Part shown: piece after piece, positions 25,307 through 52,945 of the stretch
Position numbering within the stretch: the first letter of the stretch is position 1
How the letters are laid out: each line of letters begins with the position of its first letter
Translations under genes and position numbers: made by a program
The notes under the pieces: generated by a model
The model's database searches: none
What the model was told of the DNA's origin: nothing
Seen by the model: the letters and a program-made list of their open reading frames with translations, nothing else
Assembly (NCBI RefSeq): GCF_029395355.1
Contig: NZ_CP113913.1
Coordinates: 186,001-250,000 of the forward strand
Length of the DNA: 64,000 nucleotides
Direction of reading: 5' to 3'
From: Bifidobacterium sp. ESL0800
GTDB lineage: Bacteria; Actinomycetota; Actinomycetes; Actinomycetales; Bifidobacteriaceae

Positions 25307-26362
25307 ATGAAGAACATGTCGTTGTGGGTTAACGGGCTGCGGCCCAAGACGTTGCCGGCGTCTATCGCGCCTGTGCTGGTCGGCATCGCCGCAGGTTATC
25401 CTCTGCTGGAAGCGCAGGCAGCCAGTTGCAGCACCGGAGCAAAAGAGCTGGTCGGCTGTGTGGCGGAGCCCAGCGGTTTGAGCGCTTCGCCCGCAGGTGT
25501 GTCATGGGGGAAGTTCGTGTTGCTCGCGGTGCTCTGTGTGGTCGTCGCGCTGTTCATCCAAATCGCCGCCAATTTCGCCAACGATTATTCTGATGGTATT
25601 CGTGGCACGGATGCCGGGCGTGGGGACGCGGAAGTGAAGACGGCCAAACCGCAACGTCTCACCGTCTCCGGCCTTGTCAAGCCCGGGCAGGTGCTCGCTG
25701 CCGCCGGCGTCAACGCCTTCATCGCCTGCGTGGCGGGCCTTGCCATCACCATCATTACCGGTCACTGGTGGCTTATCGCGCTCGGTGTGCTGTGCCTGCT
25801 TGCCGGATGGTTCTATGTCGGCGGCAAACATCCGTATGGCTATGCCGGTTTCGGCGAGGTCGGCGTCTTCATCTTCTTCGGTCTGGTGGCCGTTTTGGGC
25901 AGCGAATATGTGTTGGCCGGCCGCCTCGATATCTGGGGTGTCTATGGTGCGGTCATCTGCGGGCTTTATTCCTGCGCCATTCTCATGGTCAACAATCTGC
26001 GTGACGTCGACGAAGACAAGGTCAGCGGCAAGATGACCCTCGGCGTGCGGCTTGGCAAACGCGGGGCCAGAAGTGTGCTGCTGTTCGTCTATTTCGTGTG
26101 CTTGGCGGCGACGGTCGTGCTCGGCTTCGTGGGGTTGATCGATCTGTTCATCGCCACTCAAAGCGTTCATTTTGCCGGCATCATACTGGCTGTTTTGGCG
26201 CTTGTTCTTGCGGTTCTGGCGGCAATGGTCGGCTTTGGCATGATCAACGGCGTGCTCGCCGGCAACTTCGTCAAGGCATTGCCGATGTGCAGCATGACCT
26301 TGCTGGTATTCGCCGTCCTGTTCGTCATCGTCAAAATTGAGCAGGTCCTGCTCGGCGTTTGA
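25307..26362 (+). CDS. menA: MenA-like prenyltransferase (UbiA superfamily; 1,4-dihydroxy-2-naphthoate polyprenyltransferase)
   Basis: A 351-residue integral membrane enzyme that would attach a polyprenyl chain to 1,4-dihydroxy-2-naphthoate in menaquinone synthesis. It begins LWVNGLRPKTLPASIAP, typical of MenA, and shows the first prenyl-diphosphate-binding motif NFANDYSDGIRGTD and the second region NNLRDVDEDKVSGK. A polar insertion of about 35 residues separates helices 1 and 2. AGGAAGCAGGAG lies about 9 nt before ATG 25307. No other men gene is in the window, so whether it completes a pathway or remodels an imported quinone is open; cytochrome bd and NDH-2 downstream give it a context. Confidence 0.82.
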   Translation: MKNMSLWVNGLRPKTLPASIAPVLVGIAAGYPLLEAQAASCSTGAKELVGCVAEPSGLSASPAGVSWGKFVLLAVLCVVVALFIQIAANFANDYSDGIRGTDAGRGDAEVKTAKPQRLTVSGLVKPGQVLAAAGVNAFIACVAGLAITIITGHWWLIALGVLCLLAGWFYVGGKHPYGYAGFGEVGVFIFFGLVAVLGSEYVLAGRLDIWGVYGAVICGLYSCAILMVNNLRDVDEDKVSGKMTLGVRLGKRGARSVLLFVYFVCLAATVVLGFVGLIDLFIATQSVHFAGIILAVLALVLAVLAAMVGFGMINGVLAGNFVKALPMCSMTLLVFAVLFVIVKIEQVLLGV

Positions 26363-37958: not shown

Positions 37959-38681
37959 TTATTCGCACATGTGATCGGCAGAAGGCCTATGCTGCGGGCC
38001 ATGATAATGGTCCATCATCCTCCATCCCTGGCGAGAGTGATCGTGGCCTTCACTTCCGAAATCGTCACAACGGTAATAGGTGTCATTGTGGTCCTTGTTT
38101 TGATAGGACGCGTTATCATTATCGTCGTCGAAGGGATTGCCGTACTCGCCTTCCGGATTGTCTTCGTCATCCGGATCGTCCGGGTCATCGCCGTCGTTAT
38201 CGAATGGATCGGAATAGCAGTCCGAGCCGTGGCATTCCGGATAATCCGAATCCATATGGTTGAACGCGTAACCGAATGCCGAAACGATGGCGACGGCGAC
38301 GATGATGTCCAATACCGTCAACACCGCGCCGATGGCGATTCCGGCAATGGACATGCCCTTGCTTTTTTCGCCGCTTCGATTGATCTGTACCAGCGCGATC
38401 ACGGAAAGTATGAGCCCGATGAACGGCATAAAGAAGGAAAGCGCGAAACCGACGATGCACAGGGTGTTCCATTTCTGGTTCGGAGCCGGCGCGTAGTAGC
38501 CCTGAGGGCCCATGGGCGGCATTGGACCTGGGCCCGAAGGAGGCATTGGACCTGGGCCTGAGGGCGGCACCGAACCGGGACCTGCGAAGCCGTATGGTTG
38601 GTAATTCGGCGTCTGTGGGTTTGCGCCGCTGTATTGGTAGGGTGCCTGATTCGGGCTTGCATTGAAATCGTTGTCGTTCAT
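37959..38681 (-). CDS. DUF4190 membrane protein with Pro-rich and His/Asp-rich ends
   Basis: A 240-residue protein. A Pro/Gly/Tyr/Gln-rich N-terminus (repeats of [10 protein letters not shown]) precedes two membrane helices typical of DUF4190 ([20 protein letters not shown] and a second ending [12 protein letters not shown]). A very acidic tail ([15 protein letters not shown]) and a His-rich end follow ([19 protein letters not shown]). The tail could bind metal ions. The start at ATG 38681 has TAGACT (38694-38689) 7 nt upstream and no ribosome-binding site. Function unknown. Confidence 0.8.
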
Positions 38682-38745
38682 AGCCAACAGTCTACGCGGG
38701 CCGGGTGAAGGTTCCGGGGTTTGCCTTCCGTTAGACTTGGGGTTC
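38682..38745. promoter_or_regulatory. Divergent leaderless promoter region (DUF4190 gene / trmB)
   Basis: Identical -10 hexamers TAGACT lie on each strand: 38694-38689 (7 nt before the minus-strand ATG) and 38732-38737 (8 nt before the plus-strand GTG at 38746). The two transcripts would each begin at their start codon. The starts are only 64 bp apart, so the promoters are interlocked. Confidence 0.6.
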
Positions 38746-39543
38746 GTGCAGGAAAACGACAAAAGAATCCATCATGTGCTCTCATACGTCCGGAGAAAGG
38801 GGCGTCTCGATGATCGCTACAAGCGGGCCTGGCAGCGGTATTCGCCGGATTTCCTGCTTGACGTCAACGCGGGGGAGGGCTCGCTTGATTTGAGGCAGGG
38901 ATTTGTGTTCGACCGTGATTTCGTGCGCAAGACCTGGGGTAACGACCATCCGTTGGTCATGGAAATCGGCACGGGGCAGGGCGAAAACATCATCGCCGCT
39001 GCGGGCGAACACCCAGAGGTCAATTTCCTCGCGGTTGAGGTCTACGACCCTGGTGTGGCCCATACCATGCTGCGTGCCGGCAAACTCAACCTCGCCAATC
39101 TGCGCGTCGCCCAGATCAATGCCCCGGAGCTTTTCGGCGCGTGCGAACCGGGTGTGGCCGCCGAAGTGTGGACGTTCTTTCCCGACCCGTGGCCCAAGAT
39201 GCGCCATCACAAGCGGCGTATCGTCCAGCCCGCGCTCGCGTCCGACATCCGCAAGGCGTTGGGCGAGGGGAAGGTGTGGAGGTTGGCCACCGATATCGAG
39301 GATTATGCGCTTCACGTTCATGAGGTGATGGATAGTCGCGCTGATTTCGCCAATATCGGTACCTTGACCGTTTCGTTGCCCACTGAGCATGTCGGCAAGG
39401 GTACGGCGGATGAGGCCGAGTCATTGCCCCACGCCGATTTCAGGGAATCGGAACGTTTCGAAGGCCGTGTGCTCACCAATTTCGAGAAAAAGGGCTTGGC
39501 CGCGGGTCGCGTGATTCACGATTTCACTTACCAAGCTGTTTGA
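38746..39543 (+). CDS. trmB: tRNA (guanine-N7-)-methyltransferase
   Basis: A 265-residue SAM-dependent enzyme methylating G46 of tRNAs. The SAM-binding motif [26 protein letters not shown] and the catalytic [15 protein letters not shown] are present. The start is a GTG ([10 protein letters not shown]) with TAGACT 8 nt upstream and no Shine-Dalgarno; the frame further upstream to 38662 would overlap the divergent gene and is not supported. Confidence 0.93.
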
Positions 39544-39817: not shown

Positions 39818-39889
39818 GCCCCCCTCGTCTAACGGTTAGGACACCAGACTTTCAATCTGACAACAAGAGTTCGACTCTCTTGGGGGGTA
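39818..39889 (+). tRNA. tRNA-Glu (anticodon TTC)
   Basis: Cloverleaf with acceptor GCCCCCC/GGGGGGT (terminal G-U), anticodon arm CCAGA-CTTTCAA-TCTGA and T-arm AGAG-TTCGACT-CTCT. No CCA is encoded. TTTTTC follows and may end transcription. Confidence 0.96.
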
Positions 39890-39911
39890 CTTTTTCAAGG
39901 TTTCTCAAACA

Positions 39912-40514: not shown

Positions 40515-41687
40515 ATGACTGCAATCGTTATTATTGGCGCAGGTTACGGCGGAATGCGTACGGCGAAGCAACTTGCCAAGTCCAACGTCGACGCCGACAT
40601 CATTCTGGTCAACAAGAATCCGTATCACTATCAGTCCACCGAACTGCACGAGGTCGCCGCAGGTACCAAGGAACCGGACCAGATTTCGTTTGACGTGCGC
40701 AAGGCCGTTGATCCCAAGGTCAAGGTGATCATCGATGAGGTCACCAAGGTCGATCAGGACGAAAAGAAGGTCGAGCTGAAGAATTCCAACCCGCTTTCCT
40801 ACGATTACTTGGTCAACGCGTTGGGCTTCGAGTCCGAGACGTTCGGCATCAAGGGTGCGGACGAGAACGGCTGGCCGATCATCGACATCGATACCGCGCT
40901 CGCGGCGCGCAAGCATCTTGAGGACACCCTGAAGAACTACAAGACCAGCCACGACGAAAACGACCTGCATATTGTGGTCTGCGGCGCCGGCTTCACATCC
41001 ATCGAATATTTGGGCGAGCTGGTCTATCGTCTGCCTGAGCTGGCCAAGGAATACGATTTTCCGCTTGATTTGGTCAAGATCGACTGCATCGAGGCGACAC
41101 CGAAGATTCTGCCGATGTTCGATCCGAAACTGGCGGATTGGGGCGTCAAGTACCTCGAGGACCACGGCGTCACCTTCCATGCCGGCACCCCGATCACCGA
41201 GGTCAAGCCCAACGCCGTGATGAGCAATGACACCGCCTTCCCGGCCAACACCATCATCTGGACGACCGGCGTGCGTGGCAGCCACGTCATCGCCGATTCC
41301 GGATACGACCAGAAGCGCAACCGCGTGGTCGTAGAGGACGATCTGTCGGTCAAAGGCCATCCGGAGGAGTTCCTCGTAGGCGACGTTTCCGCCGTCCCTA
41401 ACCCGGACAACGGGCGTCTCTATCCGACCACCGCCCAGATCTCCATCGCCCAGGCCGATACGGCCGCCGATAACATCGTGGCGCGTATTGCGGGCAAGGA
41501 GCCGAAGAAGTTTGTCTACAAGTCACTTGGTACGTTGTGCTCGCTCGGGCCCAAGACCGGCATCGCCGAAGTCGACATGGGCGGCCATTGGAAGCTCAAG
41601 GGCGCCAAGGCGTCCGTCGCCAAGAAGGCCGTCGCCGATCGTTCCGTCACCGAACTGACGGATGTCTCCGGCATCATGAAGGAGTAG
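40515..41687 (+). CDS. ndh: Type II NADH dehydrogenase (NDH-2), first paralogue
   Basis: A 390-residue single-subunit flavoprotein that oxidises NADH and reduces quinone without pumping protons. FAD-binding IGAGYGGMR lies at the N-terminus, the NADH-binding Rossmann motif VCGAGFTSIEYLGEL near residue 155, and LVGDVSAVPN closes the FAD site. GAAGGGGG precedes ATG 40515. It has its own terminator (41819-41866), so it is not in the cyd operon. A second copy follows at 42193 with closely similar sequence throughout. Confidence 0.88.
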   Translation: MTAIVIIGAGYGGMRTAKQLAKSNVDADIILVNKNPYHYQSTELHEVAAGTKEPDQISFDVRKAVDPKVKVIIDEVTKVDQDEKKVELKNSNPLSYDYLVNALGFESETFGIKGADENGWPIIDIDTALAARKHLEDTLKNYKTSHDENDLHIVVCGAGFTSIEYLGELVYRLPELAKEYDFPLDLVKIDCIEATPKILPMFDPKLADWGVKYLEDHGVTFHAGTPITEVKPNAVMSNDTAFPANTIIWTTGVRGSHVIADSGYDQKRNRVVVEDDLSVKGHPEEFLVGDVSAVPNPDNGRLYPTTAQISIAQADTAADNIVARIAGKEPKKFVYKSLGTLCSLGPKTGIAEVDMGGHWKLKGAKASVAKKAVADRSVTELTDVSGIMKE

Positions 41688-42192
41688 TCGTCTCTAGTGT
41701 CGATGCCTGCTTTTTGCTAGGCGTCGGCACCAGACTGGCCTGTGGCGTTGGCAGGCGGCAATATCGAAAAGGATATGAGCAGGCGCTGGCCATGTGCAAA
41801 AGGCCAATCGGAAATCTTGAGGGTGTATCGGGAGTGCCAATCTTGCGATACGCCCTCGTTTTGTTTCAAGGTACGCGTATCGAACGATATTTCGGACCAT
41901 AGGCCATGCCCCGGTCGTAACGAACTCTTTTTGGCTTATAGGCCTGTTTTAACATTTTATGCGACAAAATAATTGCTCTGCGTCGCGAAAAATGCTGTTC
42001 CATAACAAAAAGCGTCTTGAGAAGTGACATATGCCATAAAAGAGCGGGAAAATGCTTGTTTAGCCTATTATTTGCAAGGTTTTAATCGTTTTTTGTTCAG
42101 CTTTTCATATATTGTTGAAGTGTGTTGGCAATGATGAAGTCCGATAAGACTTCATCTTTTCTGTGATTAAGCTATAAGGAAAAGTGATTGGA
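41688..42192. other. Intergenic region between the two NDH-2 genes
   Basis: About 500 bp without a recognised gene. It holds the first gene's terminator (41819-41866). The downstream 300 bp are AT-rich and probably carry the promoter of the ndh2-cydAB operon; no specific operator was identified. Confidence 0.5.
41819..41866 (+). terminator. Terminator after the first NDH-2 gene
   Basis: GAGGGTGTATCG (41819-41830) pairs with CGATACGCCCTC (41846-41857), with one G-U-type mismatch, followed by GTTTTGTTT. Confidence 0.85.
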
Positions 42193-43374
42193 ATGAAGAG
42201 AATCGTCGTTCTTGGAGCAGGATACGCCGGGATGCGTATCGTCAAGAAATTAGCTGGTTCAGGCGTGGATGCACAAATCGTGCTGGTCAACAAAAACCCG
42301 TACCATTACCAGTCAACCCAGCTCCACGAAGTCGCCGCAGGGACCAAAGAACCTGCGGATATTACCTTTGACGTCAGTCAGGCCTTCGCCGGTAAGAACA
42401 ATGTTCAGGTGATCATCGATGAAGTGGTCCGCATCGACCAGGACGCCAAGAGCGTCGAGCTCAAGGACAATGCGCCGCTCCAATATGATTATCTGGTCAA
42501 TAGTCTGGGCTTCGAGTCCGAGACGTTCGGCATCGCTGGTGCCAACGAGAACGGGTGGCCTATCATCGATATCGATACCGCACTGGCGGCCCGCAAGCAT
42601 CTTGAAGACACGTTGAAGCGCTACAAGGCCAGCCACGACCCCAACGACCTGCGCATCATCGTCTGCGGCGCCGGCTTCACCAGTATCGAATATCTCGGCG
42701 AGCTCGTCCACCGCCTTCCCCGTCTCGCCAAGGAATACGGTTTCCCTCTCGGCGAAGTCAAGATCGACTGCATCGAGGCCGGGCCGAAGATCCTCGGTAT
42801 GTTCGACCAGAATCTGGCCCAATGGGGGGTCAAGTATCTTGAGAAGAAGGGCGTCACCTTCCACGTCTCCACTCCCATCACCGAAGTCAAGCCCAATGCC
42901 GTGATGAGCAACGACCAGGAGTTCCCGGCCAACACCATCATCTGGACCACCGGTGTTCACGGCAGCCATGTCGTTGCGGATTCCGGCTATGACCAGAAGC
43001 GCAATCGTGTGATCGTCGCCGATGACCTGCGCGTCAATGGCCAGCCCGATCAATTCCTTATCGGCGATGTCTCCGGGGTCATGAATCCGAGCAACGGGCG
43101 TCTGTACCCGACCACCGCCCAGATCTCCATCGCCCAGGCCGATTGCGCGGCCGACAATCTCATCGCGTTGATGAACGGGCAGCCCACCAAGAAATTCGTT
43201 TTCAAGGCTCTTGGCACGGTTTGCTCGTTGGGACCGACTGCAGGGATTGCATCGATTGACATGTTTGGTCACTGGAACCTCAAGGGTTGGATTGCCAGTG
43301 TCGCCAAAAAGATGATTTCCGATCGTGCCGTCTTGGAGTTGACCAATATTGGTACTATGCTGGAAAGTGATTGA
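42193..43374 (+). CDS. ndh: Type II NADH dehydrogenase (NDH-2), second paralogue
   Basis: A 393-residue paralogue of the preceding NDH-2, with VLGAGYAGMR, VCGAGFTSIEYLGEL and LIGDVSGVMN. Long runs are identical between the copies (for example NKNPYHYQST and NGWPIIDIDTALAARKHLEDTL), pointing to a lineage-specific duplication. AAGGAAAAG is 12 nt before ATG 42193; a GTG at 42184 is too close to it. cydA starts 46 bp downstream, so this copy is in the oxidase operon. Confidence 0.88.
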   Translation: MKRIVVLGAGYAGMRIVKKLAGSGVDAQIVLVNKNPYHYQSTQLHEVAAGTKEPADITFDVSQAFAGKNNVQVIIDEVVRIDQDAKSVELKDNAPLQYDYLVNSLGFESETFGIAGANENGWPIIDIDTALAARKHLEDTLKRYKASHDPNDLRIIVCGAGFTSIEYLGELVHRLPRLAKEYGFPLGEVKIDCIEAGPKILGMFDQNLAQWGVKYLEKKGVTFHVSTPITEVKPNAVMSNDQEFPANTIIWTTGVHGSHVVADSGYDQKRNRVIVADDLRVNGQPDQFLIGDVSGVMNPSNGRLYPTTAQISIAQADCAADNLIALMNGQPTKKFVFKALGTVCSLGPTAGIASIDMFGHWNLKGWIASVAKKMISDRAVLELTNIGTMLESD

Positions 43375-43420
43375 TTCCGTGCTTTTATGAGTAGGGAATA
43401 CTTGGGAAGAAAGGATTAAA

Positions 43421-44887
43421 ATGACTGTTTTAGGGTTATCGCGATTCCAGTTCGCGATGACGACGGTCTTCCACTTCTTCTTCGTACCGTTATCCATAGG
43501 CTTGGCATTTACAGTGACTGTAATGGAAACGTTATACGTAGCGAAGCGGAAATACATTTATAAGCGTATGGCACAGTTCTGGGGGAAGATTTTCCTCTTG
43601 AGCTTTGCTGTTGGTGTAGTGACCGGCATCATCCAGGAATTCCAGTTCGGTATGAACTGGTCGAACTATTCGCGTTTCATGGGCGATATCTTCGGAGCTC
43701 CTCTGGCCATCGAGGCCCTGCTGGCGTTCTTCATGGAGTCCACGTTCATCGGTGTCTGGATGTTCACCTGGAACCGCTTCAAGCCGGGTGTGCATGTGAT
43801 CTTCATCTGGCTGACCTGGTTGGGCTCCACGGTTTCCGCCATCTGGATTCTCGCGGCGAACAGCTTCATGCAGAACCCTGTGGGCTTCGGCATCAACAAG
43901 AAGACGGGCCATGCCGAGATGACGAATTTCGCTGCTGTCATCAGCAACCCCCAGCTTTGGCGTGAGTTCCCGCACATCGCTACGGGCGCGTTGATGCTCG
44001 GCGGCATGGTCGTGGTCGGCATGAGCGCCTTCGGCTTCATGCACAAGAACGCCGACCGCGCCTTCTTCACCCGTTCGATCCGCGTCGGCGCCATCATCGC
44101 GCTGATCGGCTCCATCCTCGTCATCATCACCGGCGACCTGCAGACCCTTGAGATCATCAAGGATCAGCCGATGAAGTTCGCCGCCACCGAAGGCATTTAT
44201 GAGGACCTCAAGAGCCCGGCGCCTTGGATGGTCGTCGGCTTCATGAACGAAGGCAGCCACACGGCCGCTGGTCTCGAGATCCCCGGCATGCTCTCCCTGC
44301 TTGCTTTCCACAAGCTCTACGGCGGAACCATTCAAGGCATGAACACCTTGAACCAGCAGTTCCTCGGTGAGCGCGGCAAGATCATCAAGAACGGCATCGA
44401 GCATCCTGAGATTTCGAACTACTACGTGCCTGCCAACGTGCTGTTCTGGAGCTTCCGCTTCATGGCCGCCGTCGGTTTCGCCGTGCTGATTCTCGCCATC
44501 TGCGTGCTGTGGTTCACCCGCGCCTCCAAGAACACTCTGGCGGACAGCCGCTGGAAGCTCTGGGTCCTGGGCGTGTGCACCTATCTGCCGTTCATCGGCA
44601 CCACCGGTGGCTGGCTCATCACCGAGCTCGGCCGCTATCCGTGGATCGTCTATGGCCTGCAGACCATCGCCGACGCTGTCTCGCCGACGGCTACCGTGAC
44701 GAGCCTGCTGATCACCAATATCGTCTACTTCCTGCTCTTCTGCCTCATGGGCGGCGTGATGATCTTCTACTCCCGCCGCGTGCTTCATCAGGGACCGGAG
44801 CCGGATGTTGAAGGTTCTGCACAAACGGCTACCGCGGGTGCACATGTTGGCGCCCATGCGGCCAATAGAAAGGTGGCGTTGGCATGA
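43421..44887 (+). CDS. cydA: Cytochrome bd quinol oxidase subunit I
   Basis: A 488-residue membrane protein carrying hemes b558, b595 and d. It has the N-terminal heme-ligand region RFQFAMTTVFHFFFVPLS, the second His in EFPHIATGALM and the Met-bearing SFRFM segment. The quinol loop (around NQQFLGERGKIIKNGIEH) is short, as in Gram-positive oxidases. It reduces oxygen to water with menaquinol and contributes to proton-motive force. GAAAGGA precedes the ATG, and the gene directly follows an NDH-2. Confidence 0.95.
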   Translation: MTVLGLSRFQFAMTTVFHFFFVPLSIGLAFTVTVMETLYVAKRKYIYKRMAQFWGKIFLLSFAVGVVTGIIQEFQFGMNWSNYSRFMGDIFGAPLAIEALLAFFMESTFIGVWMFTWNRFKPGVHVIFIWLTWLGSTVSAIWILAANSFMQNPVGFGINKKTGHAEMTNFAAVISNPQLWREFPHIATGALMLGGMVVVGMSAFGFMHKNADRAFFTRSIRVGAIIALIGSILVIITGDLQTLEIIKDQPMKFAATEGIYEDLKSPAPWMVVGFMNEGSHTAAGLEIPGMLSLLAFHKLYGGTIQGMNTLNQQFLGERGKIIKNGIEHPEISNYYVPANVLFWSFRFMAAVGFAVLILAICVLWFTRASKNTLADSRWKLWVLGVCTYLPFIGTTGGWLITELGRYPWIVYGLQTIADAVSPTATVTSLLITNIVYFLLFCLMGGVMIFYSRRVLHQGPEPDVEGSAQTATAGAHVGAHAANRKVALA

Positions 44888-45954
44888 CTGAATTTCTCGC
44901 TAAGCCATTGATCGATGGCAACAATTTCCTGCAATTGCTGTGGTTCTTTGTGATTGCTTTGGTATTCGCCATCTTCCTTTTCCTTGACGGCATTGATTTC
45001 GGTGTCGGCATGGCCACCCGCGTGCTGGCCCATAACGGCGATGAGCGTGCGCTGTACATGCGTGCGGTCGGCCCGCACTGGGACGGCAACGAGGTCTGGC
45101 TCATCACCGGCGGCGGCGCCATGTTCGCTTCCTTCCCGCTGTGGTATGCGAGCCTCTTCTCCGGTTACTACCTGCTGCTCTTCATCGTGTTGGTCGGCCT
45201 GATTCTGCGTGGCGTCTCCTTCGAGTTCGCCGCACACGCCATCACCGATCGTGAGCGCAACGTGTGGCAGTGGGCCAACTTCGCCGGCAGCGTCATCGCG
45301 CCGTTCGGCCTGGGTATGATGCTCACCAGCGTCATCCAGGGCGTTCCGATGGATGCTCAGGGCAACGTTCACGCCGGTTTCTTCGACGTGGTCAACCTGC
45401 TCTCCATCGTCGGTGGTGTGGCTGTGGTGTTCTTCAGCTTCCTGCACGGTCTGCACTTCCTGAGCCTCAAGCTCGACGAAGCGACGTCCGAGAGGATGCT
45501 CAACACCTCCAAGAAGACCTACTGGATCGCCTACCCGGCGCTCGTGATCTTCGTCATCCTGGCGTTCATCTTCACTGATTTCTATCAGCGTCGCACCAAG
45601 TCCACACTGCTGATCACCGTGGTCATCCTGGCCGCGACGATCTGTGGACATCTTGCAGCCTACAAGAAGCGCGGAGGTTTCGCCTTCCTCGCTTCCGGCG
45701 TCACCCTTGCCGGTATCATCGCCTTCATCTTCAACGGGCTTTTCCCGAACGTGATGATCGCGACCGATCCGTCCAAGAGCCTGGCTGTGTCCACCGCCTC
45801 GTCTTCGCAGTACACGCTGGAAATCATGACCATCGTGCTTTGCTGCCTCCTGCCGATTGTCCTGATCTACTTCAGCTGGTCGTATTTCATCCAGCGCAAG
45901 CGTTTGCTCACGGACAACTCGCCAGAAGCCATCAAGGCGGCTTTGGCCGAGTGA
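44884..45954 (+). CDS. cydB: Cytochrome bd quinol oxidase subunit II
   Basis: A 356-residue membrane protein with eight or nine helices. The N-terminal FLFLDGIDFGVGM and DGNEVWLITGGGAMFA are signatures of the CydB family. It starts inside the cydA stop (ATGA overlap), so the subunits are co-translated. Confidence 0.95.
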   Translation: MTEFLAKPLIDGNNFLQLLWFFVIALVFAIFLFLDGIDFGVGMATRVLAHNGDERALYMRAVGPHWDGNEVWLITGGGAMFASFPLWYASLFSGYYLLLFIVLVGLILRGVSFEFAAHAITDRERNVWQWANFAGSVIAPFGLGMMLTSVIQGVPMDAQGNVHAGFFDVVNLLSIVGGVAVVFFSFLHGLHFLSLKLDEATSERMLNTSKKTYWIAYPALVIFVILAFIFTDFYQRRTKSTLLITVVILAATICGHLAAYKKRGGFAFLASGVTLAGIIAFIFNGLFPNVMIATDPSKSLAVSTASSSQYTLEIMTIVLCCLLPIVLIYFSWSYFIQRKRLLTDNSPEAIKAALAE

Positions 45955-45994
45955 CGGACTGATGTTCGTTCTTTCGCCTGAAAGTTAGATCAAT

Positions 45995-46066
45995 GCCCGA
46001 TGCTCTTATCCCGCAGCGATGAATGTGCAATAATGTTCATTGATGCGGGGGAGTATCGGGCTTTCT
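45995..46066 (+). terminator. Hairpin between cydB and cydD
   Basis: GCCCGATGCTC and GAGTATCGGGC form a long interrupted stem (45995-46061, with inner CCCGC/GCGGG) followed by TTTCTTT. It may end the cydAB message or attenuate read-through into cydDC. Confidence 0.75.
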
Positions 46067-46104
46067 TTGTCTTAAAAAATATCCGTTAGTAGTTGGGACT
46101 GGTC

Positions 46105-47997
46105 GTGATCGATAAAAGTCTATTCAGGTTCGACGGGGTGCGGCAGCGTATGGGGCTTTTGGCCTTGCTTTCGCTTCTGCAGGCGCTGTCCATCGTCGGC
46201 CAGGCCCATGGCTTGGCGCGGGGACTGGTAGAGATATGGAAGCTTCATGCGGTTTCCGCGCTCATAGGCCCGTCTCTGGAATTTCTCGCTTTCTATGCCG
46301 TGCGTCATTTGTGCGATGTGGCCAAGCAGCATATTTCCAGCAAATACGGCAAATACGTGGCAGGGCAGATACGACCTCAGCTCCAGCACAAGATCTTCCG
46401 GCTTGGTCCGCAGGCGCTGGCTTCACGCGGCACCGGTTCGACGGTGACGATGCTCATCGACGGCCTCGACCAGGTCGAGCACTATATCGAGATCCTCCTG
46501 CCGAAGATGACCGACATGATGTTGATCTCGTTGGTCATCCTGATCGCCGTATGGTGGCAGGACTGGGTGAGCGGCCTGGTGCTGCTGCTGATGTACCCGC
46601 TGATCATTTTCTTCATGGTCATTCTGGGACTTGCCGCACGTGACCGCTCCAACAAGCAATATGCCCAGTTCAATATCCTCAACACCAAATTCGTCGACAG
46701 CATCCTCGGCCTGCCGACCCTGAAGATGCTCGGCGTCGACAAGGAATACGAAGGCGAGATCTACAGCGTCAGCGAACGGTTCCGCAAACGCACCATCGAC
46801 GTGCTCAAGGTCGCGATGACCTCGACCTTCGCCCTCGACTGGTTCACCACGCTCGGCATCGCCATCATGGCCGTCTTTCTCGGCCTGCGCTTGGTCAACG
46901 GCACCATGCCGCTCTTCCCGGCCATGTTCGCGCTGATCATGGCCCCCGATTACTTCCTGCCCGTGCGTCAGTTCGGCGACAACTACCACGCCACCCTCGA
47001 CGGCAAGAACGCTCTGCACGATATCATGAGCTTCATCGACGGCCCGGAGACCCCGCAGGACACCGAAACCAAGTGGGACGGCTGGAAGGCCGACAGCGAG
47101 CTCAAACTCGAAGACGTCGACTTCGCCTATCCTGCCGGTAGCAAGCCGGAAGGTGAAGACGAAAGCCAGAGTGTGGCAAGTCACAGCGTCGCGATGAACG
47201 CTGTGGAACAGCAGCGCGAAGGTCAAGGCGATCAAGACACAAAGCAGGCTCAAGCTGAAACCGGCATTTCTGGAATCCAGGCGGCCGCCCAGCCGGATGC
47301 CTTGCATCATGTCTCCATGAGTTTCAGAGGCTACGGCAAAATCGCCGTCATCGGCAAGTCCGGTGCCGGCAAGTCGACGCTGATCAATCTGCTCGCAGGA
47401 TTCAATATTCCCCATGCTGGTTTCATCGAGCTGGATGGCAAGCCGTTGAAGAATTTCAACGTCGAGGCATGGCAGCGCCATATCAGCTACATTCCTCAGA
47501 CTCCATACATTTTCAGCGGCTCCATTGCCGACAACATCCGTTTCTATGTCAACGATGCCAGCGAACAGGACGTCAAGGCGGCCGCCCATGAAGCCGGACT
47601 CGACGAGTGGCTGGACGAACTTGCCGAGGGGCTCGGCACCTTGATCGGGGAGGGCAACCGCGGCATCAGCGGCGGGCAGGCCCAGCGCATCGCGCTTGCA
47701 CGAGTCCTTCTCGACCAGTCGCGCGAGGTACTGCTCTTCGACGAGCCCACCGCCCACTTGGACATCGAAACCGAATACGACTTGAAGAAGACCCTGCTTC
47801 CGATTATGGACAACCACTTGGTCATCCTGGCCACGCATCGACTGCACTGGCTTGCCAACGTCGACCAGGTGCTCGTCCTCGACGAAGGAAAGATAGTCGA
47901 ATCCGGCACGCCCAAGGAATTGATCGGTGCCGGTGGTCCCCTCGACCACCTCATCAGCGAGATGGGAGGCAACCAGATTGACCAGTACCTCGACTGA
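46105..47997 (+). CDS. cydD: ABC transporter CydD (thiol exporter for cytochrome bd assembly)
   Basis: A 630-residue membrane-ATPase fusion. Six membrane helices come first (about 10-305), then the nucleotide-binding domain with VIGKSGAGKST, signature GISGGQAQRIALARV and Walker B VLLFDEPT. The middle has a polar stretch (about 350-395). With CydC it exports cysteine/glutathione and is needed for cytochrome bd assembly. The start is probably GTG 46105 (GGGA 6 nt upstream); an in-frame TTG at 46093 lacks a site. Confidence 0.88.
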   Translation: MIDKSLFRFDGVRQRMGLLALLSLLQALSIVGQAHGLARGLVEIWKLHAVSALIGPSLEFLAFYAVRHLCDVAKQHISSKYGKYVAGQIRPQLQHKIFRLGPQALASRGTGSTVTMLIDGLDQVEHYIEILLPKMTDMMLISLVILIAVWWQDWVSGLVLLLMYPLIIFFMVILGLAARDRSNKQYAQFNILNTKFVDSILGLPTLKMLGVDKEYEGEIYSVSERFRKRTIDVLKVAMTSTFALDWFTTLGIAIMAVFLGLRLVNGTMPLFPAMFALIMAPDYFLPVRQFGDNYHATLDGKNALHDIMSFIDGPETPQDTETKWDGWKADSELKLEDVDFAYPAGSKPEGEDESQSVASHSVAMNAVEQQREGQGDQDTKQAQAETGISGIQAAAQPDALHHVSMSFRGYGKIAVIGKSGAGKSTLINLLAGFNIPHAGFIELDGKPLKNFNVEAWQRHISYIPQTPYIFSGSIADNIRFYVNDASEQDVKAAAHEAGLDEWLDELAEGLGTLIGEGNRGISGGQAQRIALARVLLDQSREVLLFDEPTAHLDIETEYDLKKTLLPIMDNHLVILATHRLHWLANVDQVLVLDEGKIVESGTPKELIGAGGPLDHLISEMGGNQIDQYLD

Positions 47998-49912
47998 AAC
48001 GGCAAGTAAAGCAAGTATCGACACAACCGAAACCAAGAATATGAACGGTTTGAGTGGCACGACAATGAGTGAAACCGACACAACCAGCAAAGCCCCCGTT
48101 TCCGCCTCCGATGTTCCAAGTTCGCAGCCGGGCGGAAAGAAAAGCCTGCGCGACTACCTCAAGATATGGGACAACGACCATTGGTTCTGGCCGTACCTGA
48201 AGGAGAACAAGCGCACGCTCGCCCTGATCTTCTTCCTGGGGTCCATGACCTTCGTCTGCGCCGCCGCCCTGATGTTCACCGCCGGTTACCTCATCAACCG
48301 CTCGGCGCGTATGCCCTATAACATTCTCATGGTCTACGTTCCGATCGTCCTGACGCGTGCTTTCGGCATCGGCAGACCGGTCTTCAAATACGTCGAACAG
48401 CTCAAAAGCCACGACTGGGTGCTCCATGTCATCTCCAAGTTGCGCGTGCAGCTTTACCGCACCCTCTCCAAGGACGCCGCGTTCCTCAATGAACACGAAC
48501 GCACGGGCAGCGTGTTGAGCCTGCTGGCGGACGATCTCGATCACCTCGAGAACTTCTACCTGCGCACCATTTTCCCCACGGTGGTGGCCTATATCCTCTG
48601 GATCGTGGTCACCATCGCCATGGGCATCTTCTCCTGGACCTCCTCGCTGCTGCTGTTCCTGATGCTCGCGCTGGTGCTGATTCTGATTCCGTTGGTCTCG
48701 TTGAGCTTCTCAACCGGCCATTTCGAGCTGGAAAAGCAGCAGCAGGCACAGGAATACACCAAGGTCACCGAAAGCTACCTCGGCCTGAGCGACTGGGTGA
48801 TCACCCACAAAGACAAGGACTTCGTGGCCATCGGAGCGGACGAATACCGACGCATCCAGGAGAGCAAGGACCAGCAGAAGGCCTTCGAACGCTGGCGCAA
48901 CTTCGCCATCCAGATTGTCTTCGGTGTCATCGCCATCGGCCTGATGGTCGGGGCCGGGCTGACCATGACCGGGTCCAAGTCCATCGCCGACTGGTCCGCT
49001 TCCATCGTGCTGGCGGTCTTCCCGCTGGTCGACTGTTTCATCAACGTGGCTCAGGCCACTGCCGAGATACCGCTGTACAGCGATTCCCTCGAGCACCTGA
49101 ACGACCTCACCAACCGCGTCGAAGCGCGTCAACAGGCCCCGGTGGCGCAGCAAAAGCTCGACGGCCTTATCAAATCCATCGATTTCGACCATGTCACCTT
49201 CGCCTACGGTCCCGGCCAGCCGACGCTGCTCGATGACTTCACCCTGCATATCAAAGTGGGGGAGAAGGTCGCGCTGCTCGGGCCCAGCGGGGAAGGCAAG
49301 ACGACAATTCTCCAGCTGTTGCTGGGCGATCTGGTTCCGCAGCAGGGCAGCATCACCATCAACGGCATTCCCGTCGCGGCGCTGCAGGACGAACGTGCCC
49401 GCGTCTTCGGCTACCTGAACCAGCAGGCCTTCCTCTTCAACTCCACCATCGCCGAAAATGTGCGTCTGGGCGCTCCCGACGCCACCGATGACGACGTGTG
49501 GGCGGCGCTCAAGGCCGTGCAGCTCGACGAGACGGTCGCCGCTCTTCCCGACGGCATCGACACTTCAGTGGACGAGGCCGGCCAGCGCTTCTCCGGCGGC
49601 CAGCGCCAACGCATCGCCCTGGCGCGCATCGTTCTGAAAGACACTCCGGTGATCCTGCTGGACGAACCGACCATCGGCCTTGACCCGATCACCGAGCGCG
49701 AGCTGATGTCGATGATCTTCTCCGCCGCCGGCGAGCGGACGATGCTCTGGGTCACCCACCATCTGCAAGGGCTCGAACAGTCCGACAAGGTCATTTTCCT
49801 CGACAACGGCAAGATCGCCATGCAAGGCGCTCCCACCGAACTTTACCGCACCAATGAGCGATTCCGTGAGCTCTACCGCCTGGACGTCGGCGAGCTGGAA
49901 ACGGCGCGCTGA
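47978..49912 (+). CDS. cydC: ABC transporter CydC
   Basis: A 644-residue partner of CydD, also a membrane-ATPase fusion with LGPSGEGKTT, FSGGQRQRIALARI and VILLDEPTIGLD. I place the start at TTG 47978, where GGGAGG lies 8 nt upstream inside the cydD coding sequence; it overlaps the cydD stop by 20 nt, indicating coupling. ATGs at 48041 and 48065 have no convincing site. A Ser/Thr-rich N-terminal extension of about 60 residues precedes the first helix. Confidence 0.85.
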   Translation: MTSTSTETASKASIDTTETKNMNGLSGTTMSETDTTSKAPVSASDVPSSQPGGKKSLRDYLKIWDNDHWFWPYLKENKRTLALIFFLGSMTFVCAAALMFTAGYLINRSARMPYNILMVYVPIVLTRAFGIGRPVFKYVEQLKSHDWVLHVISKLRVQLYRTLSKDAAFLNEHERTGSVLSLLADDLDHLENFYLRTIFPTVVAYILWIVVTIAMGIFSWTSSLLLFLMLALVLILIPLVSLSFSTGHFELEKQQQAQEYTKVTESYLGLSDWVITHKDKDFVAIGADEYRRIQESKDQQKAFERWRNFAIQIVFGVIAIGLMVGAGLTMTGSKSIADWSASIVLAVFPLVDCFINVAQATAEIPLYSDSLEHLNDLTNRVEARQQAPVAQQKLDGLIKSIDFDHVTFAYGPGQPTLLDDFTLHIKVGEKVALLGPSGEGKTTILQLLLGDLVPQQGSITINGIPVAALQDERARVFGYLNQQAFLFNSTIAENVRLGAPDATDDDVWAALKAVQLDETVAALPDGIDTSVDEAGQRFSGGQRQRIALARIVLKDTPVILLDEPTIGLDPITERELMSMIFSAAGERTMLWVTHHLQGLEQSDKVIFLDNGKIAMQGAPTELYRTNERFRELYRLDVGELETAR

Positions 49913-49982
49913 ACGACAGCAAATAACAGCAACAGGTCGGAGGAGAAACGTCCGGCAATATGGGGCTCGAATATAAGCCTCT

Positions 49983-50031
49983 ATGCATTTGACGGGCGGA
50001 TGCTTACCAAGCATCCGCCCGTCAAATGCAT
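49983..50031. terminator. Perfect 23-bp hairpin between convergent cydC and polyprenyl synthase genes
   Basis: A 23-nt arm (49983-50005) is exactly repeated in inverted orientation at 50009-50031, with a 3-nt ACC loop. The stem is unusually long and perfect for a bacterial terminator, and there is no T-run on either side. Confidence 0.85.
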
Positions 50032-50067
50032 TGCCATATGTTGTATGCGAAATCGCTGATTCGGAAT

Positions 50068-51039
50068 TCAGATGGTCTTGATGAACCTGTCGATGACGTC
50101 GGTCAGCGCCTTGGCGGTGCCTGCGTTGATCGGCGGGTAGGCATTGTCCGTGATGGCGGCCTTTGCGGCCTGTAGGTGATTGCGTGCCTCGTCTTTGGCA
50201 CCCTTGATGAACTGCGGATGGGCCTTGAAGTAATCGAGCACTTGCAGCGGGTCGTCGCGTTTGACGATATCCGTGAACGCCGGGTCGGCCGCAATCGCCA
50301 GAATGACGGGCAGCGTGTAGATGCCGTCGCGAATGTCCTCGAGCTTCGGCTTGCCGGTGTCGTGGGCGACGTTGAAATCCTCCACGTCGTCGAGAATCTG
50401 GAAGGCCATGCCCAAGTGCAGTCCGAATGTCTTGGCTTGCTCCAGAGCCTGCGCTGTAGGCTCGCTGACGCTGAGTTTGATGCCGGTGATGGCCGCCAGG
50501 CGGAACAGAGCCGCTGTTTTGCCCGCGATGGCCTTCTCATAGTATTCCTTGGTGGTGCTGGTATCGTGTCGCGCGCATTCCTGCAGCAAGTCGCCGCAAA
50601 CGATCTCGTTGACGGTGTGGGCCTGCTCGGCGATGAAGGCCTTGTCCGGAGAGATGATGGACATGATTTCCATGTAGCGCGAAAGGATGAGGTCGCCCAG
50701 ATAAATCGCGGCCTTGTTGCCACGTACCGTTTGCACCGTCGGCTGATTGCGTCGTACCGAGGCGTTGTCGAGCACGTCGTCGTGCACCAAGGTGGCCAGA
50801 TGCAGCATCTCGATGGCGGCCGCCCCCGTGACCACGTCCTTGGCTGCGGGTTGCGGGCTGTCCGATTGCGTGGCGTAGGAAAACAGCAGGACCACAGAAG
50901 CCCGGATCATCTTGCCGTGGTTATCGAGCAAGTGACGGTAATCCTCGCGATACGGGGTGACGTTGTCCTCTTCGGAGTGCAACGTTTCCACTACGCGTTT
51001 CAGATCATCGCGCAACAGGAGCCCCTGTTGATTTGGCAT
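50068..51039 (-). CDS. Polyprenyl diphosphate synthase (long-chain, trans)
   Basis: A 323-residue enzyme extending farnesyl or geranylgeranyl diphosphate with isopentenyl units. The first Asp-rich motif is VHDDVLDNASVRR and the second ILDDVEDFN; GKMIRA and GDLILSRY are typical of the IspB/HepT group. A long-chain product is needed as the menaquinone side chain, which fits its position by the oxidase genes and the MenA-like protein. GAGAGG lies upstream of a TTG (51045) and this ATG (51039); the exact start is uncertain. Confidence 0.88.
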   Translation of the reverse strand: MPNQQGLLLRDDLKRVVETLHSEEDNVTPYREDYRHLLDNHGKMIRASVVLLFSYATQSDSPQPAAKDVVTGAAAIEMLHLATLVHDDVLDNASVRRNQPTVQTVRGNKAAIYLGDLILSRYMEIMSIISPDKAFIAEQAHTVNEIVCGDLLQECARHDTSTTKEYYEKAIAGKTAALFRLAAITGIKLSVSEPTAQALEQAKTFGLHLGMAFQILDDVEDFNVAHDTGKPKLEDIRDGIYTLPVILAIAADPAFTDIVKRDDPLQVLDYFKAHPQFIKGAKDEARNHLQAAKAAITDNAYPPINAGTAKALTDVIDRFIKTI

Positions 51040-51172
51040 ACCCAACCTGGCCTCTCGAAAATTTAGTAATCAGACGAACGTACCCAATATAGCATCTGTC
51101 CGATATTAACCCATCACGGTAATTGCCGATAGTGCCAGATGAAACGATCAGGAAGGGACTATCGGCAGAACG

Positions 51173-51892
51173 TCAATCGTTATTATTGATTCTTGTGACG
51201 GAAATCACTCCGTCGATATTGCTCAGGTCGCCGATCAGCTCCTTGCTGTCACGTCCACGCACCTCGAGGTCGGCTGAAACCACATGACCGCGGCTGCCAG
51301 GCTCTTCGTCATCGTCGTCCTTTGATTTTCTGGTGGAAAAGCCTTCGACGGAGACACTGTGCTGGGCGCACACCGAAAGAATCGAACGCAATATGCCGTG
51401 TCCGTCGCGATACCTCAAACGTAGGATGTCATCGTTGCCGATTCCGGGCGCGATCAGCCTGGTGAGGAAAGGCAGCAGCGTCACCGCCAGGAAGTAAAGG
51501 GCCGTGCAGGTCAGTGCCGGCACGAACTGGCCGGCACCGCAGGCCGAGCCGATGGCCGCGGTCATCCAGATCGAGGCGGCCGTGGTCAGCCCCCGGACGT
51601 GCGAACGCTGGGTGAAGACGACGCCCGCGCCGATGAAGCCGATGCCGGAGACGATCTGAGCGGCCACACGTGCCGCATCCACTCGGATGTTGGGTGAGGC
51701 CGTGAGCACGTCCAGGAAGCCGTACTTGCTGATGATGACGAACAGCGCCGAGCCGACGCCCACCAAGGCGTGGGTGCGCGTACCGGCGTCTTTGTGCTTG
51801 GCCTGGCGCTCGAGACCTATGGAGGTCGAGAGGACCAACGCCTCAAAAAGATAAAGGGCCTGCCAGCCCCACGCCACCAGTTGCGTTTCCAT
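51173..51892 (-). CDS. MgtC/SapB family membrane protein
   Basis: A 239-residue protein with four membrane helices (ALVLSTSIGLERQAKHK, then GIGFIGAGVVFTQRSHVRGLTTAASIW) and a cytoplasmic ACT-like C-terminal domain (about 155-239). Proteins of this family modulate ATP synthase and Mg2+ homeostasis. GGGGAG lies 5 nt before ATG 51892. A stem at 51124-51133/51158-51167 (TGCCGATAGT/ACTATCGGCA) just past the stop may be its terminator. Confidence 0.85.
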   Translation of the reverse strand: METQLVAWGWQALYLFEALVLSTSIGLERQAKHKDAGTRTHALVGVGSALFVIISKYGFLDVLTASPNIRVDAARVAAQIVSGIGFIGAGVVFTQRSHVRGLTTAASIWMTAAIGSACGAGQFVPALTCTALYFLAVTLLPFLTRLIAPGIGNDDILRLRYRDGHGILRSILSVCAQHSVSVEGFSTRKSKDDDDEEPGSRGHVVSADLEVRGRDSKELIGDLSNIDGVISVTRINNND

Positions 51893-52075
51893 TTGCACTC
51901 CCCATCTTTGGTATACGATCCATGGCTATCTGCAATGCAGCATCTGCAGTAATCGCCGTTGTCGTGAGGCCAAGGGTATATTTCGCGACCATGCTACTGA
52001 GCTACTGAAGATGCAAGCCATACAGCTTACACCCTGACGGCGAACTTTTTGATTGCTCGGCGAAATACATTCAAT

Positions 52076-52945
52076 TCAGCGGTGGTTGCTTATTTCGTGC
52101 TGTTCCTTGCTCCAGATGCGCCGTGCCGGATTGACGTTCCTGTGATTGAGGTATTTCTGATAGACCGGGTAGAAGGCCCGCAGCGCCGGATAGAGCGCGT
52201 ACAGCGTCCGTTCGGTGTCGTGCGCACGCGTATGGTTCGGGTGGGCGTCGAAGGTGTTCTGAAAGCGCTGCATATACTTGCGAAATGAAGAGAACGAGGT
52301 GTCCATGCGACGTGCGCTGACCCCGGTGATCATTGCCTCGCAGTAGACGGTTTTCAGCCCTTGGTCAAGCAGATGCAGGGAGATGTCGATGTCCTCGTGC
52401 ATGATGTCCGCCTTGTCACGGCACACGTTGTCTTTGATTTTCTCCCACGCGCTGGCCCGCACCGCCATATTCGAGCCGAACAGCAGCACCTTGTCGTCGT
52501 CCGCGCGATAGGTGACCTTGCGTACTTTGTTGTCGCCTTCCAATCCGAGTCGTTCCGCGGGCATGTCGTAATAGACCGCAGGGCCGGTGGCGCCCATGGC
52601 GCTCGGGTCACGCTCGAAGATATCGGAGACGACCTCCACCCAGTCCGGTTTGAGCATGCAGTCCGCATCGATACGGCCGTACACATCGCCAAGCGCCGCG
52701 GAAAAACCGAAATCGCGCGTGGGAATAAGCCCTTGTTCCTTGTCCTGGTGGACTAATTTGACCGGCGAAGGGCTGGGCTGATGGTCAATGAAGCGTTGCA
52801 CCAGTTCACAGGTTTTATCGCTTGACTTGTTGTCGACGACGATGACCTCGTAGGGTGCAACGGACTGGCAGACGGCATTGCTCAGACAGCTGACGATGCG
52901 CTCCTGCTCGTTGTACGCGGGTATCACGATGGAAACTTTGACCAT
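52076..52945 (-). CDS. Glycosyltransferase family 2
   Basis: A 289-residue cytoplasmic GT-A enzyme: VSIVIPAYNEQERIV at the N-terminus, VVDNKSSDKT, the metal-binding DxD in GRIDADCM and a later HEDIDISLHL. The acceptor is unknown; it lies divergently from an AI-2E family transporter. The start is ATG 52945, with TATCCT 8 nt upstream (leaderless-type); the frame continues upstream to 53131 but overlaps the divergent gene and has no support. Confidence 0.85.
   Translation of the reverse strand: MVKVSIVIPAYNEQERIVSCLSNAVCQSVAPYEVIVVDNKSSDKTCELVQRFIDHQPSPSPVKLVHQDKEQGLIPTRDFGFSAALGDVYGRIDADCMLKPDWVEVVSDIFERDPSAMGATGPAVYYDMPAERLGLEGDNKVRKVTYRADDDKVLLFGSNMAVRASAWEKIKDNVCRDKADIMHEDIDISLHLLDQGLKTVYCEAMITGVSARRMDTSFSSFRKYMQRFQNTFDAHPNHTRAHDTERTLYALYPALRAFYPVYQKYLNHRNVNPARRIWSKEQHEISNHR

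Follow-up and report, generated by a model that had tools for sequence, protein, structure and literature searches.

Where did the actinobacterium Bifidobacterium sp. ESL0800 obtain a set of genes for an oxygen-reducing electron-transport chain, and how could such a chain be supplied with heme and quinone? The genes form a seven-gene block at positions 40515-51045 of the window, our term for the whole 64,000-base stretch analysed here, which is bases 186001-250000 of the single 2,250,646-base contig (99.3% complete) of this genome (G000). The explanation that fits best, and that we hold to be quite probable, is a respiration cassette derived from Lactobacillaceae that would pass electrons from NADH through demethylmenaquinone to cytochrome bd, drawing heme and a quinone precursor from outside the cell. 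That bifidobacteria of bees have respiration genes has been published before, and their kind is known; what is new is the Lactobacillaceae origin, the presence of MenA throughout the genus, and the patchiness of the cofactor cassettes.

The respiration block

An earlier sequence-only reading of this DNA saw two genes for type II NADH:quinone oxidoreductase (NDH-2), cydA, cydB, cydD, cydC, and a polyprenyl diphosphate synthase (PPS) gene clustered together, and frames and family matches confirm all seven. Every frame, that of menA included, is open in the list of open reading frames, the starts and ends of these genes and of menA lie at the places given here or a few codons away, and six genes are on the plus strand, with the synthase gene convergent on the minus strand. 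NDH-2a (40515-41687; PF07992, 138.6 bits) and NDH-2b (42184-43374; PF07992, 128.7 bits) are 74% identical and combine the two-dinucleotide-binding fold with similarity to solved NDH-2 structures, the best for NDH-2b being 5na1 (E 5e-88). They are followed by cydA (43421-44887; PF01654, 499 bits) and cydB (44884-45954; PF02322, 300 bits; TIGR00203, 270 bits, cut-off 117), encoding cytochrome bd subunits I and II, and by cydD (46093-47997; TIGR02857, 540 bits, cut-off 435) and cydC (47927-49912; TIGR02868, 475 bits, cut-off 329), encoding the two halves of the assembly ABC exporter. The annotated cydC frame overlaps cydD, its TIGR02868 match begins at residue 86, and its true start is probably downstream of the annotated one. 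The synthase gene (50068-51045; PF00348, 180 bits) encodes two DDxxD motifs (DDVLD and DDVED) and has the place and strand of its Lactobacillaceae counterparts. NCBIfam cut-offs are passed by CydB, CydD, CydC, and MenA; none is passed by CydA, either NDH-2, or the synthase.

CydA aligns with the solved bd oxidase 7nkz over residues 1-470 and with 7ose in two stretches; by source organism we take 7nkz to be a mycobacterial bd oxidase and 7ose to be bd-II. Inactivation of its catalytic residues, a possibility that had been raised, is not what the alignment indicates: H18, E98, E106, H185, K252, E257, R346, M348, W398, and E402 are all present. If, as we assume, these correspond to residues of E. 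coli CydA, then H18, H185, and M348 are presumably the heme ligands, E98, E106, W398, and E402 conserved positions, and K252 and E257 part of the Q-loop. The NADH-quinone-bd chain proposed from the sequence is the best interpretation of this gene set.

Both NDH-2 copies occur in six of the 14 relatives whose loci were fetched (G083, G090, G087, G093, G084, and G088) and a single copy in the other eight, and the pair is therefore read as a local duplication. Compared with the locus of G090 (L215), NDH-2a, CydA, and CydB are 98-99% identical and NDH-2b, CydD, CydC, and the synthase 78-89%, an unevenness that suggests recombination between species inside the block.

Origin of the block

The best CydA match elsewhere in the class reaches 385 bits and 43% identity (260 matching among 345 genomes, 344 besides G000 itself), and the best in Lactobacillaceae 724 bits and 69% (277 matching among 388 genomes of the family, that of G464, home of the Liquorilactobacillus uvarum locus L014). 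In a 90-row maximum-likelihood tree, 24 Bifidobacterium CydA rows form one clade (support 100/96) that is sister to three Lactobacillaceae rows (100/100), within enclosing clades of 42 and 48 rows (100/98 and 100/97) whose other members are all Lactobacillaceae. Forcing Bifidobacterium CydA together with the 14 actinobacterial rows is 137.9 log units worse (p-AU 1.6e-71 in the approximately unbiased, AU, test), and a single origin for Bifidobacterium and Galliscardovia 272.9 log units worse (p-AU 2.3e-78), under constraints set after a first tree had been seen. The tree was built from 164 extracted CydA matches, leaving out L105 (28% identity), L106 (incomplete), L119 (which is the window itself), L126, L128, and L080; thinning of the actinobacterial, other Bacilli, and other rows gave 116, and removal of 10 long branches (including L022, L012, and L013) and 16 near-copies gave 90. 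Quick trees of the exporter halves place Bifidobacterium in one clade for CydC (95, calculated without actinobacterial rows) and group it at 93 for CydD, with a long-branch warning.

Gene order also connects the window with this family. The order NDH2>cydABDC<PPS, on the same strands, is found in the three Lactobacillaceae genomes that are sister to Bifidobacterium in the tree (G538, G569, and G502; loci L228-L230), where CydA is 65-68%, CydB 71-72%, CydD 55-56%, CydC 62-64%, and NDH-2 62-63% identical to the window's proteins; unlike the window, these loci have a single NDH-2 copy, and their synthase is just 41-44% identical. The same order occurs in Apilactobacillus quenuiae (L022) and Streptococcus didelphis (L074), and the order of the cyd block differs in other lactic acid bacteria. 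Galliscardovia ingluviei (L019), also of the Bifidobacteriaceae, has a cyd block in which, unlike in the window, NDH-2 lies beyond the synthase; its CydA pairs with that of S. didelphis in the 90-row tree (100/99), and on this phylogeny its cyd genes are a separate acquisition. The block in the window thus appears to be derived from lactic acid bacteria, specifically Lactobacillaceae. To say that bee-associated lineages keep cytochrome bd would imply an old inheritance; the tree rejects descent from actinobacterial CydA and is still compatible with an early gain in the genus.

Within Bifidobacterium, a CydA family match is present in 25 of 112 genomes, among them a fragment in G095 and a divergent CydA, 28% identical, in G096; the latter (L105) comes from a fragmented genome, and contamination is possible. 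The closest named relative among the best 80 of 598 stretches is B. bohemicum, with 77% CydA identity; among the tree rows, B. bohemicum and G012 have the same CydA. One search of the named genomes covered 26 of 28. A bee association of the genome studied here is suggested solely by the literature on its relatives.

How does this compare with earlier accounts? Passages of Bottacini 2012 (PMC3447821) describe respiration genes in bee-gut B. asteroides PRL2011, report low oxygen uptake in B. asteroides and none in B. bohemicum and others, and read the genes as lost in mammal lineages, recent transfer not being apparent. Sections of Ellegaard 2015 (PMC4449606) describe cydABCD in bifidobacteria from bees as well as in Firm-4 lactobacilli and take them to be ancestral from their GC content, and parts of Lugli 2017 (PMC5540593) list four cyd genes in 11 Bifidobacteriaceae genomes. 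Excerpts of PMC9004370 mention homologs of the Cyd proteins both among isolates from bees and in sewage B. subtile and suggest a missing heme synthase as the reason why some bee strains do not respire. A limited literature search, in which only Bottacini 2012 and Ellegaard 2015 were listed, found no published report of a Lactobacillaceae origin of bifidobacterial cyd, a wider one had no tree of these genes among the results listed, and no paper was found on bifidobacterial menaquinone in connection with bee gut and heme. That bifidobacteria inherited cydABCD from actinobacteria is contradicted by the present result; what had been described only as an old gene set would be a whole electron-transport cassette transferred from Bacillota into Actinomycetota.

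Quinone and heme supply

The gene for the dihydroxynaphthoate prenyltransferase MenA (25307-26362, plus strand; TIGR00751, 179 bits, cut-off 102; NDxxD and DxxxD motifs) lies outside the acquired block. Its place and identity had been read correctly, but it is independent of the block, because the lysS-menA-gpm locus is kept in genomes without cyd genes: menA adjoins a gpm gene in all eight cyd-less genomes examined, a selection from 87, and lysS, seen in six of them, flanks it opposite gpm. MenA exceeds its cut-off in all 112 Bifidobacterium genomes, including the 87 without CydA. menA is a separate, old, genus-wide locus, and its ubiquity rules it out as a marker of respiration. Two adjacent menA matches lie at G093:C2:331626-333616.

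MenB is much rarer, exceeding its cut-off in 12 of the 112 genomes, all within the 25 that bear CydA; there is a fragment in G092 and a weak, below-cut-off match in the cyd-less G009. In G000, menB (C1:1982788-1983633) is followed by menE (C1:1983803-1985893), each over an NCBIfam cut-off (for MenE, TIGR01923 at 343 against 330), and for the two proteins PRK07396 and PRK03640 give better scores than PRK08321 and PRK07824, the latter two of which we take to be the actinobacterial types. Since menB, menE, and menA are all in the genome, o-succinylbenzoate is a possible starting point. Genome-wide, the best MenD match in G000 has 68 bits, below the cut-off of 244, and no convincing match to MenG was found, which makes demethylmenaquinone the likely product. 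MenD is strong (420 bits) in G083 and G090 only, which carry a Lactobacillus-like menF-D-H-C cassette between glnE and pyrB (L108:6997-11902 and L115:7583-12490) with a GC content of 48.4%, compared with 54.7-56.1% alongside. The Lactobacillaceae genome G657 has the same menF-D-H-C order at 52-64% identity, and the plasmid collection, searched as a source of menD, gave 41% at best. The site is empty in G000, where only about 225 bases separate the match to glnE from that to pyrB. In G083 and G090 the cassette, together with menB, menE, and menA, would complete the pathway to demethylmenaquinone (menE was checked in G083 only). Four cyd-less genomes without MenB (G054, G063, G067, and G071) also exceed the MenD cut-off, at 267-275 bits, with proteins that are possibly another thiamine-diphosphate enzyme.

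The genes for heme are similarly patchy. Ferrochelatase exceeds its cut-off in eight and coproheme decarboxylase (ChdC) in nine of the 112 genomes, all of them CydA-bearing, and neither does so anywhere in G000. In the relatives examined the heme genes are arranged as a chdC-MFS-cpfC cassette, which adjoins an EF-G-like gene in G083, G090, and G087 and lies elsewhere in G002; at the corresponding site in G000 both flanks are present and the cassette is absent. A decaying copy, with a cpfC fragment and one stop in the ChdC frame, is found in G082 (L163:10342-12917). Three ferrochelatase matches each are present in G083, G085, G089, and G091, and at L109:8416-13908 chdC and an MFS transporter gene, possibly for coproporphyrin or heme, stand with three tandem ferrochelatase-like genes. 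With these searches the MenD, ferrochelatase, and ChdC cut-offs are exceeded in 7, 8, and 7 of 14 control genomes. The probabilities of chance co-occurrence with CydA (1e-9 for MenB, 2e-6 for ferrochelatase, and 4e-7 for ChdC) ignore kinship, and their significance is overstated for that reason.

What of the idea that cofactors are imported? The sequence-only reading saw no other men or hem genes, and this is borne out in the window, where MenB-F, ferrochelatase, and ChdC proteins from elsewhere find no relative at E 1e-4. Genome-wide searches recovered menB and menE and left MenD, ferrochelatase, and ChdC under their cut-offs. Import is thus supported for heme and for quinone in part, and calling the block complete-looking was too strong, because its cofactor supply looks incomplete.

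Gene content, gene order, phylogeny, and empty sites are what the data show; from them we infer how electrons flow, which quinone is used, that heme and a precursor are taken up, and what the cell gains, as follows. NDH-2 would oxidise NADH and reduce a membrane naphthoquinone, and cytochrome bd (CydAB, assembled via CydDC) would oxidise the quinol with oxygen, yielding proton-motive force. The prenyl tail would come from the convergent synthase, and MenA would join it to dihydroxynaphthoate, giving probably demethylmenaquinone; MenE and MenB, from their separate locus, could convert o-succinylbenzoate to the naphthoate. Heme, and o-succinylbenzoate, dihydroxynaphthoate, or quinone, would be supplied by neighbours, on which the organism probably relies for heme and for part of its quinone. 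As the searches recovered neither MenD nor the enzymes that make heme, respiration should start only with neighbours' heme and with their precursor or quinone.

This arrangement has partial parallels. According to passages of PMC3447821, B. asteroides PRL2011 likewise has cydABCD, an NADH dehydrogenase, menA, and menE; unlike in the window, its cydA follows cydC by gene number, an order shared with L004 and L005. The same passages credit that strain with the final three steps of heme synthesis and with menF and menC, and its respiration genes with an old origin, whereas in G000 ferrochelatase, ChdC, and MenD are under cut-off and CydA groups with Lactobacillaceae. Lactic acid bacteria whose respiration is activated by heme and quinone, as described in parts of PMC8303990, use the same enzymes, and the gene order of the window matches some Lactobacillaceae. 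The menA, menB, menE, and menG of Lentilactobacillus buchneri in that source resemble the partial menA-menB-menE set of G000, although G000 is an actinobacterial host with no convincing MenG.

A broader proposal, which we put forward tentatively and judge to fall a little short of even, is that bifidobacterial respiration is a modular trait from lactic acid bacteria, in which a core of NDH2-cydABDC-PPS and optional cassettes are set on the genus-wide MenA. If so, the optional cassettes (menB-menE, menF-D-H-C, and chdC-MFS-cpfC) would come and go between species, neighbouring species would lie anywhere between self-sufficiency and complete dependence on heme and quinone precursors that are shared, and MenA would let the whole genus convert scavenged dihydroxynaphthoate, a bifidogenic factor, to membrane quinone. 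The present findings predict which species are able to respire alone and which would need shared heme or a quinone precursor. G012, which has the CydA of B. bohemicum, has MenB and neither ferrochelatase nor ChdC over cut-off, a set that would fit absent oxygen uptake without heme and may explain the lack of uptake by B. bohemicum in the published assay, as partly anticipated in excerpts of PMC9004370. Sections of PMC10746273 describe how lactic acid bacteria cross-feed one another with quinones and how dihydroxynaphthoate promotes the growth of Bifidobacterium, and for the latter effect the genus-wide MenA offers a testable reason.

Site of the block and alternative explanations

NDH-2a begins 625 bases past a tRNA-Glu(TTC) gene (39818-39890, plus strand), where the Lactobacillaceae cassette would have settled; to its left is an open reading frame for a trmB-like tRNA methyltransferase (38662-39543, plus strand). 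In all eight cyd-less genomes examined the same tRNA gene stands beside the trmB-like gene, in some inverted, and cydA, NDH-2, and synthase have no match within the 40 kb examined at that site. Of the 14 Bifidobacterium cyd stretches that were fetched, the tRNA search covered 11, all but L217, L220, and L224. Among close relatives, L214, L215, L216, L219, and L222 have a tRNA-Glu gene about 280-610 bases upstream of NDH-2, and in L221 and L223 the distance is 3.7 kb; the block is 258 bases past tRNA-Leu(TAG) in B. aemilianum (L003) and 315 bases past tRNA-Glu(CTC) and tRNA-Gln in Bifidobacterium sp. 7101 (L004). No tRNA gene is near the block in the three Lactobacillaceae loci L228-L230.

Several observations weigh against an acquired cassette fed from outside. 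No tRNA gene is close upstream in L002 and L218 (both B. bohemicum), L225, or L227, and the nearest in L226 is at 5.5 kb; tRNA genes are therefore a frequent, not a universal, border, and the block has no flanking direct repeats of at least 12 bases. In the 90-row tree the branch to the next Lactobacillaceae relatives of the Bifidobacterium group is weak (85/57), and the Bifidobacterium clade had a support of 84 in the quick 116-row tree. The stretch of NDH-2b at the quinone site reads AQISIAQ, against AQIAMQQ in 5na1, AQxAxQ being what we take to be the NDH-2 quinone-site motif. MenF, MenH, and MenC are absent at the G000 glnE-pyrB site and in the surrounding 120 kb, the rest of the genome being unsearched for them, and a partial PF01209 match of 20.7 bits in G000, just above the cut-off of 20.1, makes a MenG possible. 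The block, at 57.3% GC, is like the window, at 57.8%, so that composition shows no transfer, and GC content is uninformative for or against it. The match with genome GC is also the argument, in the passages of PMC3447821 and PMC4449606, for a set of genes that the genus ancestor already had, whether by inheritance or by an early gain from Lactobacillaceae, and that most lineages lost (Bottacini 2012; Ellegaard 2015), and a single genus CydA clade fits one early gain. We consider this history unlikely: the tree and AU test reject inheritance from actinobacteria, the tRNA-Glu/trmB site is without the block in all eight cyd-less genomes, and block neighbourhoods differ between lineages, although an early gain with losses and moves is still compatible. 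The data do not separate a single early gain, followed by moves and losses, from gains that happened repeatedly.

Could the main use of the chain be oxygen removal that shields a fermenting cell, at little gain in energy? In favour are that NDH-2 is not a proton pump and that coupling by bd is modest, and the low oxygen uptake of B. asteroides in the relevant part of PMC3447821 points the same way; the quinone and heme cassettes of relatives fit a real electron chain, but oxygen removal as well, and we regard this function as doubtful yet a serious contender. That the cell makes all cofactors with enzymes overlooked by the searches is improbable: MenB and MenE are present and MenF, MenH, and MenC were sought at one locus only, but MenD, ferrochelatase, and ChdC stay under cut-off in a nearly complete single contig, with searches that succeed in controls and sites that are seen to be empty. 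Least credible, to the point of being very improbable, is that the block is a decaying, unused relic. Cofactor genes do decay in relatives, as in the MenB fragment of G092 and the broken heme cassette of G082, but here seven genes are open, the CydA residues are conserved, and a second NDH-2 has been kept.

A promoter and terminator scan gave no excess over shuffled sequences, and an Rfam scan returned tRNAs only. On the right, the names of the genes being, like that of trmB, our assumption, an open reading frame for an MgtC-like protein (51173-51898, minus strand) adjoins the synthase gene, followed by a glycosyltransferase-like gene (52076-52942, minus strand) that is present in six of the eight cyd-less genomes, there with an AI-2E-like gene next. 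The MgtC-like gene occupies the same place in L214, L215, L219, L221, L218, and L002.

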